Shown here: positions 9,536 to 64,000 of the stretch, piece after piece
Numbering within the stretch: the first letter of the stretch is position 1
Layout: every line of letters starts with the position of its first letter
Assembly: GCF_000321415.2 (NCBI RefSeq)
Contig: NC_019902.2
Span: 3,224,001 to 3,288,000 of the forward strand
Length of the DNA: 64,000 bases
Direction: 5' to 3'
DNA from: Thioalkalivibrio nitratireducens DSM 14787
GTDB taxonomy: Bacteria; Pseudomonadota; Gammaproteobacteria; Ectothiorhodospirales; Ectothiorhodospiraceae
Notes under the pieces: generated by a model
What the model was told of the DNA's origin: nothing
The model's input: only the letters and a program-made list of their open reading frames with translations
Database searches by the model: none
Translations under genes and position numbers: made by a program

Positions 9536-10906
9536 TTACCGGCCGGACGGACTCAAAGCAACCGGCCCCGTAGCGAGCGCTTCGCGAATGGCACTCGAAA
9601 TGCGCTCGGCGGCGGCGACGATCTGCCCGTTGTCCCGGCCCTCCACCATCACCCGCACCAGCGGTTCAGTGCCCGAGGGACGCAGCAGCACGCGGCCGTT
9701 CTGCGCCAGCTCCGCCAGCACCTCGTCCACCGCCGCGCGCACCGGTGGCGCTCCCAGCACCCCGGTGGCGGACCCTTCGACCGGCACGTTGACCAGCACC
9801 TGGGGCAGTTTCTGAACGACCCGGCGCAACTCGGACAGGGGCCGGCCGGTCCGGTGGATCAGGTGGGCGATGCGCAGCGCCGCCACGGTGCCGTCCCCGG
9901 TCGTGGTATGGCCCAGGCAGACGATGTGGCCGGAACCCTCGCCACCCAGCTGCCAGCCGTGGCGGCGCAGTTCCTCGAGCACGTAGCGGTCCCCCACCCG
10001 CGCGCGGACGAACGGAATACCCGCAGCACCCAGTGCCAGCTCCAGCCCCAGGTTGGACATCTGTGTCCCCACCACACCCCCATTGAAGCCGCCGTTCCCC
10101 GGATCCGTCAGCGCCAGGATTCCCAGGATCTCGTCCCCGTCGACGATCTCTCCCCGCTCGTCGGCGAGGATCACGCGATCGCCATCGCCATCCAGCGCGA
10201 TCCCGAGATCGGCACCGGCGGCGAGCACCTGCTGGCACAGTGCCTCCGGGTAGAGCGCGCCGCACTCGGCATTGATGTTGTAACCGTCGGGGCGGGTTCC
10301 GAGGGTATCGACGTCGGCGCCGAGTTCAGCGAACACCTGCGGGGTCACGTTGTAGGTCGCGCCATGCGCACAGTCGACCACGACCCGCAGTCCGCGCAAT
10401 TGCGAGCGCGCCGGAATCGCGCTCTTGCAGAACTCGATGTACCGGCCCGCCGCATCCTTGATGCGTTCCGCCTTGCCGAGGTTGCGCGAATCGAGCTCGC
10501 CCAGCGGGCGTTCCAGACGCTCCTCGATCGCCTGTTCCAACGCATCCGGCAACTTGTCACCCTCGGGTGTAAAGAACTTGAAGCCGTTGTCGTCGTACGG
10601 GTTGTGCGACGCGCTGATCACCACTCCCGCCGCGGCACGAAAGGTCCGCGTCAGGTACGCCACCGCGGGAGTCGGCATCGGGCCCAGCAACGCGATGTCG
10701 GTCCCGGCCGCCGACAGCCCCGCCTCGAGCGCGGACTCAAACATGTAGCCGGAGACGCGCGTGTCCTTGCCAATCAGCACGGGGCCGGAACTCTGCTGCC
10801 CCAGCACCTCCCCGACCGCATAACCCAGGCGCAGCGCAAAGTCCGGCGTCATCGGCCAGCGCCCGGTGCGACCGCGAATCCCGTCGGTCCCGAAGTATTT
10901 CCCCAT
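9536..10906 (-). CDS. glmM: Phosphoglucosamine mutase
   Basis: Converts glucosamine 6-phosphate to glucosamine 1-phosphate on the way to UDP-GlcNAc for peptidoglycan and lipopolysaccharide. The 456-residue protein begins [12 protein letters not shown]; the phosphorylated serine is Ser100 in ISASHNP. The metal-binding DGDGDR lies near residue 240 and the sugar-binding [15 protein letters not shown] near 415-430. It is about ten residues longer than usual at the C-terminus. Three bases separate it from folP, matching the conserved ftsH-folP-glmM order. Confidence 0.97.
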
Positions 10907-56493: not shown

Positions 56494-57072
56494 CGGACCA
56501 TTGCAGCACCTGGTGCGGGGCATAGCAATCCCGCGCGCTTCATCAACCAGGCCAATGCGCTATCCGATGCGGTCCGCACAGACGGGTCGGCCAGAAGAAG
56601 CACGCGATGATGCTGCGTACCGGGCGGGCCTCCGCGAGCCCTCAGGCTCCGGAGTCCCCCGTATCGCCGACCGGTTCCAGCAATGCAGGATCGTCATTCG
56701 CCGGCCGGTTCACCCGGATCGAAACCGGGTACGCGACCAACCGCTCCGCATCCAGCCGCCGGGCAACGTTGCGCAGCGTCTCCCGGTCCGAAAGCCCCGG
56801 ATCCAGCCACTGCCACCGGCACCCGGGATCGAGCACCACCGGCTGGCCAAAGTAATTGACGCCGACCGGACAGAATAATTGACGTCAGACAGCCGCAGCA
56901 GCTTTTCGAACTGGGGGTTCCGGAGCAGGTTCCTCACTGCTGATTCGAATGCGAACTGTCCTTTCATCCGGCCGCTCGTTTGGGTTGTCTGTGCCTATGC
57001 GGTTTTCGTGGAGGCTTTCTGGGGTCTGGGCTACAAGCCGGGGTGACAACAAGGCGCCGTGGTTGCGGCCGC
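56494..57072. other. Gene-poor junction between zinc island and accessory operon
   Basis: No complete gene is supported in 579 bases. A minus-strand N-terminal fragment (MKGQFAFESAVRNLLRNPQF, from 56967) breaks off near 56880, and another minus-strand fragment without an in-frame N-terminus (VVLDPGCRWQWLDPG) ends at 56642. Between them TAATTGACG is repeated at 56853-56861 and 56876-56884, in a setting that resembles the repeated ends of IS21-family elements. Confidence 0.45.
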
Positions 57073-60000
57073 TCATGTTGGCGGTGAAAGGTCAATGGCC
57101 CAGCGCTGCAGTGCGTAGGCGTCCATGTCCGCCTGTTCCAACAGCCCTAGTAGTTCCTCCTGGCGCGGTTGTCCGAACACGACTCGGTAAGCAGCGAGCT
57201 GTTTCTTGAGGCGGCCGAATGCCTCGACCTCCTTGCTATAGGGCAGCAGGGGTACGTACCTTTGCACGCGGTGCTTTCCTGAGACGATCCAGTAGGGGAC
57301 CAGGTCGCTCTCGTTCATTGACCTTGCCTGCTGCTCGGCGAGGTTAAAGATTCGATGCCAGAGGTCATCGCCCGGTTGCCATTGGCGCAGGGCTTCGTTC
57401 GCGTATTGCTCTGCGACGTTCTTGCGCACCGCATGCCCCTTGTACCGGTGGACACGGCCTTCGCGCTGTTCAAGGTCGACGGGATTGCCTGGCAGGTCCC
57501 AGTGCACCAGGTGGTGACACCAGGGGTGAAAGTCGAGTCCTTCCTGACCGACCGAAGTGCTGGCGAGGACGAACGGTCTGAACGGGCTGTTGAATGAGCT
57601 GCGGACGGCGTCCTGGCTGAAGGCCCCGTCTTCGGAGCGGATGTGGCCGAAGCGTAGGCAGAGCACTGTCCTGATGCGAATCTGGTCGGTGGTGACGCTG
57701 TTGTCGGTGCCATTCGGTTGATAGAACTGCGCGTGAACGCGCGAGGGGCGCGGCTCAACGGCCTCCGCGATGTCGGCGACGCATAGGCGTGACGTGTCAG
57801 TGGTAGAGGCGGTCTCGTTCCAGGCGTGTTGTTCCCATCGCAGATGCCACATTTCGTCGAGCACGGCCTGGAGATTGCCCTGTACGCAGTAGCGGAGCAC
57901 CTGCTTCCAGTAGACGTTGTCCGCCTCTTCGTGGTGCGGATCGTGGCCGGAGACCTGCTGCAGCAGCCGAACCACGGCTGGGCGATTGAAGAGCTTCCAG
58001 AAGGCGTGGGCGATCTCTACACTCTGAAAACGCCGCTCCAGGTCATCCAGGCCCGCCGGCGCCAGGCTTCGTACGGCCAGCACGCCCGGAGCGCCGAGCG
58101 CCAGTTCGGTGACCAGCTCGGCCAGATGCTCGGGCCGGCGGCCGAGCTCGGCGGCATCCAGTTGGAGGAGGTCATCAAGGTAGGCGGACATGACCTCGGG
58201 ATTGGGCTTCGCGACGTCGTCTTCGTTCGCGTCGCGCCACCTGGCAAGGAACAGGTCCATGCCCGGATCGAGCAGGCGGAGAATCATCCACTCCCAACGG
58301 TCGTCGACCGGCCCCTCCTGAGGATCCGGGAGGTCGGGCTGCGCGAGCAGGGTCTCCACACGCGCTCGAACCCAGGCGCGGCGCTCCTCGCCGAACGGAG
58401 CGCCCAGGGGGTGGGCCACATCCGCCAGCGGCAGGCAGGGCAGCAGGAGTAGCAGCAGTCGATGCCTGTTTCGCGTGCCTTCGCCCGTCTGCGTCAGTCG
58501 CAGCAGGCCGCGTTGTTGCCGGTCGGGATCCAGATAGGAGTCCATGCTACCGCCCACCATGCGTCGTTCGGCCTCGTAGCTCAGCATCGCGCTGACGGCG
58601 TCGGGCACAACGTTCCAGGCCGAGAACAGCAGGCTCTTCGTCAGCCCCTCCTTGTCCGCATAGGGGCCCTCCAGGTCCCAGTACGGCACCGTCGGCGGGA
58701 TCCACAGCAGCTTCCAGAGGCCCCGGTCCAGCAGGCTCGAGACGAGTTCCCGCAGCTTGGCGTTGCCTGGGTCTATCTCTGACCAATCTTCAAAAGCCTG
58801 TTTGGCCAGGAAGGCACTACGGTGCGTCCGCAGTACGGTGCTGACCTTGTCCGGCGACAGGCTCAGCGCATCGGTCAGCCGCTCGTTCACCCGGTAGCCG
58901 TGCATGAAATGCAGTGGGTAAGGCGCAGACTTCCAGAAGGGCATCGGGTCGTGGTCACCGACGGCACGGAAGACCGCGTCGGTGGCGATGAAATGGCGGA
59001 CATCAAGGGGCGTCAGTTCGGGCCTGGCCGGTGGCTCGGCGACCATCGCATCTCGATCAGCGCTGGCCGCGACCCTTTCCGTCCGTGACATCACCGCGCA
59101 CAGGCTGTCCTCCACGTCGCGCTTGGCGTCGAGCATTCGGTCGGTGTGTTCGAGCGATGCGCGCTTGAGCTCAGTGCCGAAGCGCGACAGCCGCGCCTGA
59201 AGCTGCTGGACCTTCGACTCATCGCCTGCCATCAGGAAGCGCGTAGTGGCGAGGAAGTCGGCGTAGTGGTCCTCGTGCTGGATTTCCGCGTCGGCGGTGT
59301 ACAGCTTGTAGGGGGTGGCCGACAGCAGCAGTGTTCTTACCGGATGGCCTTCGCGCGTCGGTGCATTGAACAGGTGCTGTGCCAGCTCCGCAGCGGGGTC
59401 GTGGTCCAGGTCACGCGTTTCCAGCAGCGCCTTGAAGCGCTGGAACTCGTCGAGAATGATCAGGTCCGGCTCAAGCTCCCGCACGCAGACTTCGGCGAGC
59501 AGCCGTCTCAGCCTGCTCAGGAGCTGGTTGCATCGTTGGCGGGCTTTGCGCGGGTAGGCGTCGCGGTGATCCGTGAACCAGGTCTCGATGACCTGACGCA
59601 GGTCCTCCCGCAAACCGGGCGCATCGTTGACGGCGCTGACAAAGCGTTCGGCGATGCCGGCGTCGATGGCCAAGGGCCGGTGACGGATCTTATACTGCCA
59701 GATCTCCGTTCGTCTGACCGCCCCCTGAAGCAGGTGCATCAGACCCGTGCGATCAAGGTCGAGCGGTTCCAGGAGATGGTAGAGGACGCGCCGCTCCCTG
59801 GCGTGGCCGCCGGAGTGCCCCATCTCGAAGGAGGTGCCCGGCGTGAAGCTGATGAAGTTGACCTTGCCGTCGCGGAGGCTGGTGTGGTTGTCGCGCAGCG
59901 CCAGTTCGGTGGCGAGCATCGTCAGTCGGGTGGCCTGCGCGTAGCCGTTCTGCGACACGCTTCCGATCTGCAGCTTTGGTAGGTTGGCCCGGGCAATGGA

Positions 60001-60237
60001 GGTATTGCTGCAGATGTAGACCACGTTGATGTGGTCTACCGCATACCACAGGCGGTCGATGGCCTTGGCGATAATGCCTCGTGCCACGAGGGTCTTGCCG
60101 AGCCCCACTTCGTCGGCCACCAGGAAACGCCCCGTGCTGTCCGGCGCTTCGAAGAGCCGCCGGAATGCGTGCGCGACGGTACGCCGCTGGAAGGGCTTGA
60201 GTGTCCCGAGAGCGGAGTCGACGTCAGGTCGTTGCAT
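57073..60237 (-). CDS. SF2/SNF2-type helicase of the accessory operon
   Basis: A 1054-residue DNA or RNA translocase. Motif I is DEVGLGKT (42-49), motif II DEFQ (263-266, in LIILDEFQRF), motif III SATPYKLY (306-313), motif V TSVGQEGLDFHP near 894-905 and motif VI EQREGRVHRYKG (923-934). The 550 residues between motif III and motif V have no known domain. The ATG at 60237 lies within the last bases of the PLD gene (14-base overlap). Helicases with this DEFQ/QREGRVHR pattern are found in defence islands beside PLD-like proteins; whether this one acts on phage DNA is inference. Confidence 0.8.
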   Translation of the reverse strand: MQRPDVDSALGTLKPFQRRTVAHAFRRLFEAPDSTGRFLVADEVGLGKTLVARGIIAKAIDRLWYAVDHINVVYICSNTSIARANLPKLQIGSVSQNGYAQATRLTMLATELALRDNHTSLRDGKVNFISFTPGTSFEMGHSGGHARERRVLYHLLEPLDLDRTGLMHLLQGAVRRTEIWQYKIRHRPLAIDAGIAERFVSAVNDAPGLREDLRQVIETWFTDHRDAYPRKARQRCNQLLSRLRRLLAEVCVRELEPDLIILDEFQRFKALLETRDLDHDPAAELAQHLFNAPTREGHPVRTLLLSATPYKLYTADAEIQHEDHYADFLATTRFLMAGDESKVQQLQARLSRFGTELKRASLEHTDRMLDAKRDVEDSLCAVMSRTERVAASADRDAMVAEPPARPELTPLDVRHFIATDAVFRAVGDHDPMPFWKSAPYPLHFMHGYRVNERLTDALSLSPDKVSTVLRTHRSAFLAKQAFEDWSEIDPGNAKLRELVSSLLDRGLWKLLWIPPTVPYWDLEGPYADKEGLTKSLLFSAWNVVPDAVSAMLSYEAERRMVGGSMDSYLDPDRQQRGLLRLTQTGEGTRNRHRLLLLLLPCLPLADVAHPLGAPFGEERRAWVRARVETLLAQPDLPDPQEGPVDDRWEWMILRLLDPGMDLFLARWRDANEDDVAKPNPEVMSAYLDDLLQLDAAELGRRPEHLAELVTELALGAPGVLAVRSLAPAGLDDLERRFQSVEIAHAFWKLFNRPAVVRLLQQVSGHDPHHEEADNVYWKQVLRYCVQGNLQAVLDEMWHLRWEQHAWNETASTTDTSRLCVADIAEAVEPRPSRVHAQFYQPNGTDNSVTTDQIRIRTVLCLRFGHIRSEDGAFSQDAVRSSFNSPFRPFVLASTSVGQEGLDFHPWCHHLVHWDLPGNPVDLEQREGRVHRYKGHAVRKNVAEQYANEALRQWQPGDDLWHRIFNLAEQQARSMNESDLVPYWIVSGKHRVQRYVPLLPYSKEVEAFGRLKKQLAAYRVVFGQPRQEELLGLLEQADMDAYALQRWAIDLSPPT

Positions 60238-62071
60238 TGCTGGTCCCAGTGGTTTCGGCCGAGTCGCGCGGCGTCGCTTGGTCGAGGTCGTGGTGGACGG
60301 CGGCGTAGATCGTCCGCCACATCTCGTAGAGATCGTCCGGCACAATGCTGGGGCCTTCGCTGGTGGCGCGCAGGTCTTCGATCAGGCGCTGCAGGGGCTC
60401 CAGACGCTGCGGGTCCCGGGAGGCGGCCCTGACGAGGTCTTCCAAGAGCGGGGCATTGTCCAGGCCGTCAGATTGGTGGCGCTGCCAGCTTCCGCCCCCG
60501 TTGCCCATCGCCCAGTCGGGCATGCTGTCCAGGCCGCCGAGCAATGCCCGCAGAAACTGCAGGAAGCGTTGCGGGCTGTCGATCAGGGTGCGAAGCACCT
60601 GGGCAACACGGCTGTCGGGTATGCCGGAGGCCGGGAGCTTCAATGCCATGCGCACGTCATCGATCGCCGCGTCGGCTTCGACGCGGAAGGCGACGAATGC
60701 GGTGAGTCGTGACATCGGGAGGGGCCATGCCAGCGGCAGTTCCAGCGGGCGCGCGTGGTCTTCGTTGACGGAAACGGGCCAAGCCGACACCGAGACACCC
60801 TCGGGCAGCGCCACGCTGCCCTCCAGCATCCAGGTCCATGCCTTACCCTCGGGTCGGCAGACCACTCGCAGGTCGCCTTTCACGAGTCGTTGCCGGGCCG
60901 TATCAAGCCGTTCGCGTGCGGCCGCGATCTTCGGGTCTTCAGTAGCGGGCTCGCCCGGTCGATATGCTTCACACAGCCTGGGAAAGCCGGACTCGACGAA
61001 GCGTTCGATTCCCGATCCCTTGTCCGAACCGGGTCGCCCCTTGGGTCCGGTGATGGCGGCCACCACTTCCACATTGCGCCCGGTGAACGCCGCATGGGTA
61101 AGGTTGGCCGAACCGACATACCAGGTCACCTGGTGGCCGTGCTCGAGGGCGATGAGCTTGGCGTGCAGGTCGGAGTGGCGCTCAGTCTGGCGGTCGTCCG
61201 GTTCATCCAGCGCACTTTCGGAGAGCACCAGAATCGAGTCCCAAGCCTCACGGTGCCGGGGTGGCAGTGCATCCAGGGCTTCACGCCGGCTGATCAATGT
61301 GCGTGGTGGTCGGGACAGGCGCACGAGCTGATCCAGCGTCGTGGCGCTCAGGAATGGCGCGATGGCCAGCAGGCCATTGCCCTTGCGCTCGAGTTGCCAC
61401 GGCGTGTCGGCGCCGTCTTCCAGCCCGAGGCCATGAAAGCGAATTGGCCCCCGGAAGCCCTGAGGGGCGGGGAAGCTCGTCCGTGCCACGTCTTCTGCAA
61501 GTGCCCGCACGACGTCGATGCGTTGGACATCGAGGGTTTGCGCGGTCAGTTCGGGTAGCGTGTTCAGAAAGCGAGCCAGATCCGCTGAGGCCTCGACAGG
61601 GCGCTGCTCGTCGGCGGCGTTCTCGCTGACCAGCGCCACATCCCAGGAGCGGTCGAAGGTCAGGTTGCGCGAAGCGATCGCGACGCGAAATCGGGGTGGG
61701 GCGTCGTCGCTGACGAAGCGCACGACCCAGACCTTCGGATGGAAGGTGCCGCCATTGACGCTGCGCACGGGATGCACGCTGGTTTCGAGCAGGCTGTAGA
61801 GCGCCCGGTTGGTGTGTGGGATGGCAATGCCGGATTCGTCCACGAAGACGTGCACGCGCTCGCCGGCTTCGCGCAGGGCCTCCAGCAGCAGCAGAGGCTC
61901 CTCCATCAGCTCATCGACGCCTCGGTCCGAATGCGCCAGAACCGCCAGCGGCAGCGCCAGCAGGACGTCGAGGTCGAGCGAGTAGGTCGACAGGACGGCG
62001 TGGTCGATGCGAAAGCCTGCCGGTGGGCGCAGCACGTCCATCGCCACGGAGCGGGTATCAGGAGCGAGCAT
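60224..62071 (-). CDS. Phospholipase-D-like protein with two HKD-type motifs
   Basis: A 615-residue protein with two HKD-like half-sites: FHPKVW (His111, Lys113) with ASRNLTFDRSWD (about 133-144), and LHAKLI (His303, Lys305) with GSANLTHAAFTGRNVE (320-335). Two half-sites in one chain would form a single active centre, as in PLD nucleases such as the DISARM protein DrmC. The C-terminal 240 residues are not recognised. The ATG overlaps the stop of the DUF6361 gene (TGATG), and its end overlaps the helicase start, so the three are translated as one unit. Confidence 0.8.
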   Translation of the reverse strand: MLAPDTRSVAMDVLRPPAGFRIDHAVLSTYSLDLDVLLALPLAVLAHSDRGVDELMEEPLLLLEALREAGERVHVFVDESGIAIPHTNRALYSLLETSVHPVRSVNGGTFHPKVWVVRFVSDDAPPRFRVAIASRNLTFDRSWDVALVSENAADEQRPVEASADLARFLNTLPELTAQTLDVQRIDVVRALAEDVARTSFPAPQGFRGPIRFHGLGLEDGADTPWQLERKGNGLLAIAPFLSATTLDQLVRLSRPPRTLISRREALDALPPRHREAWDSILVLSESALDEPDDRQTERHSDLHAKLIALEHGHQVTWYVGSANLTHAAFTGRNVEVVAAITGPKGRPGSDKGSGIERFVESGFPRLCEAYRPGEPATEDPKIAAARERLDTARQRLVKGDLRVVCRPEGKAWTWMLEGSVALPEGVSVSAWPVSVNEDHARPLELPLAWPLPMSRLTAFVAFRVEADAAIDDVRMALKLPASGIPDSRVAQVLRTLIDSPQRFLQFLRALLGGLDSMPDWAMGNGGGSWQRHQSDGLDNAPLLEDLVRAASRDPQRLEPLQRLIEDLRATSEGPSIVPDDLYEMWRTIYAAVHHDLDQATPRDSAETTGTSNATT

Positions 62072-63279
62072 CAGTGACCGAGTCCTTTATGAAGATCGAT
62101 GAGGAGCCGGCGTACCTGGGGCCACCGGAACTGCATGCGCCCGACACCGACATTGCCGCGCCAGTCCAGCAGCCGCCCCTGGTTCACGACCCGGGCCCTC
62201 GGTCCCTTGAGTTGGCGCTCCCGGTCGGCGATCAGCCGGCGCAACTCTTCGTCATTCACGACGCCATCCGGTCCGTTCATGGCGACCCGCCGGGACCATG
62301 TTTCGACGAAGCGCTGTTGGGGTGTGGGCAGGTGCGCGCCGTGCAAGCGCACGAAGTGCCAGAGCGCTTCTGGATCAAATGCGTCCTCGTCGGCCTCGCG
62401 ATTCGCCCATTCTGCGAGCGCGTCGCGGTAATGCTCGATCCATTCCTCGTCGTCAGCCCGGTCGTGCTCGGTACGACGCAGTTCCGCCAGCAACAGGTTG
62501 TAGAGCAGCGGCGCGCCCTCGACGTGCCGTGAAAAGCGGCGCGCAAGCTCAACCACATCGCAGATGGCCGGAGGGCCGCGAAGCGCTTCCGGGTCTTCCC
62601 ACAGATACTCGGCCGGTGAACTGGAGCCCTCGCGGGCAAGCCACGCCAGCAGGGTGCCGTTGCAGGTGGCTTCCAGGCGCCCGAGCAAGAAGTCGGCTTC
62701 TTCCGGGGTCAGCGCAAAGGCGGCGTCTTCCGGGAACGCATCGGGTGCGGGCGGGAGCCGAGGGTGCCAGGTGGCCTCCTGAGTCCAGATCACGCCGGGA
62801 TCGTCGGTGCGAGGGTAATCGGAACGCCGACGCCGGAGGCTGTGGAAGTGCGCGTGATACCAGCCCTGACTCTTGGCGGGAACGAACAGGCCCCAGTGCA
62901 CTAGGGCCGCCCAGTAGGCGGAACTGGCCAGCCGCGCCACCGCCTCGCGCGCGTGGACGCCGATGATCCCCTCCGGCGCATCACTGGTAGCAAGGGCGTC
63001 GATCAGCGTGACCTCAAGGCGCCGAGCCTCACTGGCGACATCAAAGTTGCCGTGCCTGGCCTCGAGCTGCTGATAGACCCACGGAATGAACAGCACGTAC
63101 CGAAGCCTTGTGTGCAGCACCGAGGTGCCGGGAAACAGGGCGTTGGACAGCACATCGCGCAGGCTGCCAAGCCCGAGCTCATCGACCGTGCCCTGCTCAT
63201 TGAACAGATCGAGCACCTTGCGCGCTTTGTCGCGATCCGCTGCGGTCAGATCGAGCCAGTGCAGATAGGCGTTATCCAT
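62071..63279 (-). CDS. DUF6361 family protein
   Basis: A 402-residue protein starting at the ATG at 63279, which is preceded by a very strong GGAGGGGGAG ribosome-binding site (63283-63292). The N-terminus YLHWLDLTAADRDKARKVLD and the following LGLGSLRDVLSNALFPGTSV fit the family known to me as DUF6361, whose function is unknown. No catalytic motif, membrane segment or signal peptide is seen; the charged helical composition suggests an interaction protein. It is the first gene of the three-gene operon and faces the truncated regulator. Confidence 0.72.
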   Translation of the reverse strand: MDNAYLHWLDLTAADRDKARKVLDLFNEQGTVDELGLGSLRDVLSNALFPGTSVLHTRLRYVLFIPWVYQQLEARHGNFDVASEARRLEVTLIDALATSDAPEGIIGVHAREAVARLASSAYWAALVHWGLFVPAKSQGWYHAHFHSLRRRRSDYPRTDDPGVIWTQEATWHPRLPPAPDAFPEDAAFALTPEEADFLLGRLEATCNGTLLAWLAREGSSSPAEYLWEDPEALRGPPAICDVVELARRFSRHVEGAPLLYNLLLAELRRTEHDRADDEEWIEHYRDALAEWANREADEDAFDPEALWHFVRLHGAHLPTPQQRFVETWSRRVAMNGPDGVVNDEELRRLIADRERQLKGPRARVVNQGRLLDWRGNVGVGRMQFRWPQVRRLLIDLHKGLGH

Positions 63280-63415
63280 CGTCTCCCCCTCCGGACGTAT
63301 CGTCATTCTCCGGCTGATCGCGTCTCCTCTTCCGCGCGAACGCGAAGATTAGATCAGCATTCCGGATCGGCTGGCGGTTGGTCGCTTCAGGGTTCATGTG
63401 ACCATTGTCTGCAGT

Positions 63416-63440
63416 CTATGCGACTTCCCATGTCGCATAG
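63416..63440. promoter_or_regulatory. Operator palindrome of the accessory operon
   Basis: CTATGCGAC-N7-GTCGCATAG is a perfect 9-7-9 inverted repeat between the divergent DUF6361 gene and the winged-helix regulator. Its symmetry and place fit a dimeric repressor site; TAGACT, a -10-like box on the minus strand, overlaps one edge. Confidence 0.65.
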
Positions 63441-63478
63441 TGGGGTTCCGATGGAACTTCCGTGCACACTGGAATCCT

Positions 63479-63751
63479 ATGGCCAATCACAGCGACCAGG
63501 TTTACCGGCAGTGGCAACTACTGAGGGCCATCCCCCGTGCGCCCCAGCGTCGTTCGACGCGCGAGCTCTATGAGCATCTGCGGCATAACGGTTACGACAT
63601 CACGGTGCGCTCCGTGCAGCGGGATCTGGCGGCTCTGTCGACTCAGTTTGGCTTCGTCGACGAAACGCAGGGCAGAACTGCATACTGGTACTGGCCGGAA
63701 AGCTTCCGGGTGCTTGATGTCCCGGGCATGGATCCGAAGGATAAAGGATAG
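63479..63751 (+). CDS. Truncated WYL-family regulator (winged helix only)
   Basis: A 90-residue protein with the winged helix-turn-helix typical of WYL-domain regulators: QVYRQWQLLRAIP, STRELYEHLRHNGYDITVRS, VQRDLAALSTQFGFVDE, YWYWPESFRVLDVPGMDP. Full-length relatives carry a WYL domain of some 200 residues after this point, but here the frame stops inside a 31-bp repeat. It is therefore probably a remnant, although it could still bind DNA. It is divergent from the defence-like operon, and the operator lies 40-65 bases upstream. Confidence 0.72.
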   Translation: MANHSDQVYRQWQLLRAIPRAPQRRSTRELYEHLRHNGYDITVRSVQRDLAALSTQFGFVDETQGRTAYWYWPESFRVLDVPGMDPKDKG

Positions 63752-63807
63752 GAAATCCAATCGCCTTGAGGCAATTAAGGATAGAGGATAGCAAATCCAA
63801 CTGCCTT
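63737..63807. repeat. Two 31-bp direct repeats at the end of the regulator
   Basis: Copies at 63737-63767 and 63777-63807 match at 27 of 31 positions with a period of 40. Each contains two GGATA units and ends with a CCTT. The regulator's stop codon falls inside the first copy. Confidence 0.75.
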
Positions 63808-63893
63808 CGCCCGAATATCCCTTCGCCCAAGGGGTCTGTCAACTCCCAACGGAAGGCCCTTCTGAGCAGCGGCGGCAGCCTATGGGGCCGACT

Positions 63894-64000
63894 TCAGCCA
63901 ATTCGACGTCCCTGATCGCCCACGCACACGACGTCCGCCGGACACCAGACCGCCGCGTCGGCGTCGCCCAGGGGCACCGTGCGCCCCGCAAAGTACTCGG
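63894..64000 (-). CDS. C-terminus of an unidentified protein (partial)
   Basis: Read on the minus strand, 35 codons run from the window edge to a TGA at 63894-63896. They end VVCVGDQGRRIG after EYFAGRTVPLGDADAAVWCP. Base composition is like the rest of the chromosome. I do not recognise the family; the rest lies beyond the window. Confidence 0.35.
   Translation of the reverse strand, partial: EYFAGRTVPLGDADAAVWCPADVVCVGDQGRRIG

Follow-up and report, generated by a model that had tools for sequence, protein, structure and literature searches.

Azaca, Mokosh and DISARM each combine a PLD-like protein with helicase activity. In a passage of PMC10952713, the PLD-like domain is listed for both Azaca and Mokosh, and Azaca is grouped there with Mokosh under this domain and credited to Millman et al. 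2022. A passage of PMC12278908 lists 'Azaca (ZacC)' among the defence helicases, ZacC being the helicase of the system, and also names MkoA and MkoC of Mokosh as helicases. Azaca is placed among the systems of unknown mechanisms in a passage of PMC10482375, and the relevant table of a 2026 review (PMC12926258) likewise gives its mechanism as unknown. In DISARM, a PLD protein occurs together with a Snf2-like helicase, DrmB and a methyltransferase. The locus described here had been put forward in an initial annotation as an undescribed anti-phage module of three genes under the control of a WYL-type regulator.

The three genes and their match to Azaca

The window, which is the whole 64,000-nucleotide stretch that was analysed, covers positions 3224001–3288000 of a genome that forms one contig of 4,002,350 bases. 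The operon within it consists of the following features.

62071–63279, minus strand: zacA, first gene of the operon, DUF6361 protein of 402 aa (PADLOC ZacA 402.5 bits, residues 5–400; Pfam PF19888, E 1.6e-52)
60224–62071, minus strand: zacB, PLD-like protein of 615 aa with two HxK motifs (PADLOC ZacB 529 bits, residues 1–593)
57073–60237, minus strand: zacC, SF2 helicase of 1054 aa (PADLOC ZacC 1048.1 bits, residues 5–1052)
63280–63294, minus strand: Shine-Dalgarno-like leader of zacA, CCGGAGGGGGAGACG, read from the sequence

All three zac frames are full length, that of zacA being open and without stops. Sequence letters and ORF coordinates bear out the overlapping minus-strand arrangement of the initial annotation, with TGATG at the zacA/zacB junction and an overlap of 14 nt between zacB and zacC, and the ribosome-binding site that it placed ahead of the first gene is found as CCGGAGGGGGAGACG immediately 5' of the ATG of zacA. 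The three genes differ little in GC content (0.644–0.665) from the window as a whole (0.667).

Profile searches against PADLOC-DB reveal that the matches listed above cover 391 of 396 model positions for ZacA, 582 of 586 for ZacB and 1012 of 1019 for ZacC. The components are all present at full length, adjacent and in the order A-B-C, with a PLD-like domain and a helicase as in Azaca, and no difference from Azaca was found within the three genes. Judged by sequence, the three genes are a typical Azaca operon, and Azaca has already been named as an anti-phage system. We therefore assign the locus with high confidence to Azaca, as a zacABC anti-phage operon that was probably imported on a small region flanked by two copies of the 3' end of a SRAP gene. 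The anti-phage role suggested by the initial annotation has the support of family membership, each of the three proteins being matched by an Azaca (Zac) model. However, its claim of an undescribed system fails because the proteins match the named ZacA, ZacB and ZacC over nearly their full length; an exact match to a named system, which that annotation had itself given as grounds for withdrawing the claim, was found. DUF6361 was not found in the literature searched and NCBIfam gives no family for ZacA, as might be expected of a three-gene defence system not yet described, but models already bearing the names ZacA, ZacB and ZacC match all three proteins and Azaca is named in the phage literature, so that this explanation has next to no probability and is ruled out by the PADLOC-DB matches.

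The locus shares with DISARM the pairing of a PLD protein with a Snf2-like helicase. ZacC is locally similar to DrmD around residues 872–942 (E 1.8e-13) and ZacB is similar to DrmC (E 9e-4), which could point to a DISARM-type module whose methyltransferase is encoded elsewhere. However, these matches are short and score far below those to the Zac models. In contrast to DISARM, DrmB was not found beside the PLD and helicase genes and the operon holds no methyltransferase gene; Pfam, PADLOC and NCBIfam gave no methyltransferase match in ZacA, ZacB, ZacC or the HTH fragment described below. The genome encodes two proteins with the MZB/DUF1998 domain, which we take to be the marker of DrmB; they map to 0.15 and 2.30 Mb, both outside the window, in agreement with the earlier remark that DISARM markers are lacking next to the operon. 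A DISARM-type module is, on this evidence, very improbable. As for BREX, the scan covered the three Zac proteins and the HTH fragment, and in PADLOC a short stretch of ZacC matches a BrxH-like helicase (E 7.3e-11). No Mokosh model is among the 25 and 6 PADLOC families that ZacC and ZacB, respectively, match at E <=1.

Distribution, conserved residues and possible mechanism

The ZacA model matches nine of the 96 genomes sampled around the source genome, with the source genome itself counted. Five of these matches are nearly full length, three from the same genus (G002, G007 and G011) are broken or partial, and the ninth (G094) is weak at 21.5 bits and may not be ZacA. Across the phylum, 398 genomes were searched for DUF6361 and 5 gave a match, again counting the source genome. 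A recurring three-gene association, proposed earlier as a check, was found, since the order A-B-C is intact at 10 of the 12 homologous loci that were mapped; the other two are remnants within the genus. The zacA and zacB genes overlap by 1–11 nt in all ten intact loci and zacB and zacC by 4–14 nt in nine, the exception being L028 with a gap of 25 nt; this gap and the exact overlaps at all loci depend on an automated choice of start codons. One of the two remnants retains ZacA residues 3–226 and the other ZacA residues 1–74 near ZacC residues 938–1024. These broken loci lie at 9915–10586 of L031 (G011) and 10431–10959 of L032 (G002), and the ZacA piece of G011 is 64% identical to ZacA of the source genome.

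Outside chromosomes, a ZacA relative is present in 45 of 72,556 plasmid records, 19 of which (H2–H19 and H21) are large Cronobacter plasmids. Viral contigs gave no ZacA or ZacC match and one weak ZacB-like match. A ZacC match occurs in three phage records, and in one of these (H31) it spans 99% of ZacC at 29.5% identity.

The Pfam match to DUF6361 and an alignment of 11 homologues bear out the earlier description of the products as a DUF6361 protein, a PLD protein with two HKD motifs and a DEFQ-box helicase, and the residue numbers K48, H303 and K305 given at that time are all right. In ZacB, H111, K113, N136 and D144 of the first motif and H303, K305, N323 and E335 of the second are invariant in 11/11. 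In ZacC, DEVGLGKT (42–49, including K48) and DEFQR (263–267, including DEFQ at 263–266) are invariant in all 11, and SATPY (306–310), TSxGQEGLDFH (894–904) and EQREGR (923–928) are also kept in the 11-row alignment; Pfam assigns a Helicase_C domain to this protein. The PLD assignment of ZacB is weak, its PLDc_2 score of 26.1 bits being slightly under the Pfam cut-off of 27. Its H-x-K...N...E pattern presumably resembles that of BfiI-type PLD nucleases, and the NgoFVII family PF09565, related to these nucleases, is matched at E 0.038, below the family cut-off.

Among PDB sequences, the best match of ZacA reaches only E 0.24, ZacB has one match (E 0.011) with no close relative, and ZacC matches two RapA chains (E 1.2e-4 and 9.9e-4) in the motif region only, again with no close relative. 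AlphaFold models built on 3-row alignments have a mean pLDDT of 40.0 for ZacA and 44.1 for ZacB and are too poor for use. ZacA, too, has residues that are invariant in 11/11 (W8, D33, E34, G36, F49–S53, T57, R58, R60, Y61, K358, R363, W373, R385 and W386). As one more Azaca operon, the locus is already known in kind and matters little as a find; it is mildly useful in that the passages cited above (PMC10482375, PMC12926258) call the mechanism unknown, and the residue lists for ZacA, ZacB and ZacC offer mutation targets for probing it.

Family membership, gene order, tight coupling of the genes and invariant catalytic-type residues are the observations at hand. What we infer is nuclease activity, a DNA target and a role for ZacA. 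In the mechanism that we tentatively favour, a PLD nuclease would be guided by a helicase, with ZacA as an adaptor or sensor. ZacC, as a Snf2/RapA-like SF2 translocase, would engage invading DNA or travel along it. The two HKD-type motifs of ZacB could come together in the same polypeptide as a single PLD active centre, with which ZacB would cleave nucleic acid, and ZacA, without enzymatic activity of its own, might serve as adaptor or sensor and gate both ZacB and ZacC. The division of labour proposed in the initial annotation, in which the helicase would translocate, the PLD protein cut and DUF6361 sense or recruit, is contradicted by none of the results. The reading that we place next, and regard as quite possible, is a Hachiman-like one, where ZacC would be a sensor helicase restraining the nuclease ZacB until damaged or phage-modified DNA is met, and infected cells would die by abortive infection instead of being freed of phage. 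It has a precedent in the restraint of the nuclease HamA by the sensor helicase HamB (described in a passage of PMC12278908), and the three Azaca proteins show no match to a methyltransferase that could mark self.

A decaying, inactive zac copy is conceivable, as two loci of the same genus are remnants and the adjacent regulator is truncated. However, all three frames are full length and retain the invariant motifs, and we consider an inactive copy improbable.

The facing HTH fragment and the palindrome

The following features lie on the other side of the zacA leader.

63416–63440, no strand assigned: perfect palindrome with 9-bp arms and a 7-nt spacer, possible operator
63479–63751, plus strand: HTH fragment of 90 aa, read as that of a WYL-type regulator; aligns with the start of longer proteins, not conserved as a component of the system
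63744–63900, plus strand: dispersed repeat, with an opening 17-nt string at 63744 and its body from about 63784

The initial annotation had a WYL-type regulator facing the operon and controlling it. However, the facing gene encodes a DNA-binding fragment of 90 aa, and a WYL domain was not found after the HTH. Pfam gave no WYL match in the fragment, and the PADLOC WYL model covers its residues 8–57 only (E 0.016). Residues 8–87 are 31–38% identical to the start of seven proteins (341–399 aa) encoded in six genomes of this genus, a comparison in which seven of the eight places outside the source genome were aligned (G021:C9 was omitted). These relatives extend about 250 residues further than the fragment, and the one full-length relative that was scanned has WYL and WCX domains. 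The opening 17-nt string of the dispersed repeat contains the stop codon of the fragment. We read the facing gene as a WYL-type regulator truncated at the dispersed repeat, and the repeat may itself have caused the truncation. With an alternative start at a GTG at 63398, the product would have 117 aa and the palindrome would fall inside the frame.

The fragment was found at none of the 12 other zac loci (tblastn, E 0.01, up to about 9 kb upstream, with only 538 bases available for L010). The truncation of the regulator to a DNA-binding fragment and the failure to find it at these loci both weaken the case for WYL control. In G002, G007 and G012, a WYL-type gene is present on the same contig as the zac genes or remnants, 13–15 kb off; Type I restriction genes lie between the two in G012, and a Type I specificity gene and an AbiD gene in G002. 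Against a link between WYL-type genes and zac, the WYL-type gene is on another contig in G021 and G022 and more than 1 Mb away in G011, G025 is without one, and G029 has one without zac.

The palindrome, CTATGCGAC-N7-GTCGCATAG, is exact. When the 199-nt intergenic stretch was simulated 3000 times with a first-order Markov model, a comparable repeat, defined as perfect with arms >=9 and a spacer <=12, arose in 0.87% of the runs (P ~0.009), and the site (8-bp arms, spacer 5–9) has a single occurrence in the genome of 4.0 Mb. The perfect operator of the initial annotation is thus confirmed as an exact palindrome, but the 250 bases 5' of ten other zacA genes do not contain it. Perfect repeats with arms >=8 are present in the same 250 bases before one of those ten genes, and perfect repeats with arms >=7 before one of seven WYL genes, both unrelated in sequence. 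An operator shared among zac loci was rejected, such repeats being rare elsewhere and unrelated in sequence. The fragment and the palindrome, which set this locus apart from the other zac loci, may still act on zac locally. It is unlikely, in our estimate, that the fragment is a working zac repressor acting through the palindrome after loss of its ligand-sensing half; if it were, control of zac would no longer respond to a signal.

Genomic setting of the operon

A further feature lies on the zacC side of the operon.

56638–56847, minus strand: one of two copies of a SRAP 3' end, 94.8% identical over 210 bp to the other

The second copy, at about 64807–65016 (L009 807–1016) and so just past the window, belongs to a complete SRAP gene (PF02586), of which it forms the end. 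The two 210-bp SRAP 3' ends flank the zac region in the same orientation. This bracketing suggests an acquired island, and the sequence arrangement suggests that the zac region arrived by recombination at the SRAP gene. In G012 and G002, SRAP genes share a contig with zac, about 16 and 27 kb, respectively, from zacA and past the WYL-type and restriction genes; none was found within the 12 mapped zac loci. The dispersed repeat (~110 bp) has five other stretches of 92–114 bp in the genome (L002, L003, L004, L005 and L007), where a sixth match in the repeat search was assigned to the next stretch and not counted.

A non-exhaustive scan of neighbours identified no defence-like genes directly beside the operon in the source genome. 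At the other zac loci, 18 neighbour ORFs besides zac were considered (8 + 8 by protein, plus 10 by Pfam, including two L011 ORFs and one WYL gene); these were picked by hand, and the list is not a measure of enrichment. Type I restriction subunits are present near zac at L028, L029, L030 and L058 (G012), and L033 has a neighbouring UvrD helicase with a generic GajB match. Recombinases also occur, namely integrases at L011, L028 and L030 and a serine recombinase at L034. With the limits used, PADLOC gave no match for L058:19291–19764, the two L011 ORFs and L036:3302–5464.

Some further arrangements were observed. In G025, the stretch just 3' of zacC (L029 14810–16462) encodes an additional, separate protein that has PLD-like domains (PF13091, E 1.3e-34). 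At L034 48–4912 (G315), the DISARM genes for DrmA and DrmB adjoin a zac operon and converge on its zacC. The source genome itself contains a second defence-like cluster at 2.295–2.335 Mb (L075 and L076), with a DruE-like helicase (322.8 bits), SoFic (409), a PDC-S25 Sir2-like protein (268.3), a Type IIG restriction enzyme (890.1) and a DrmD-like helicase (303.9).
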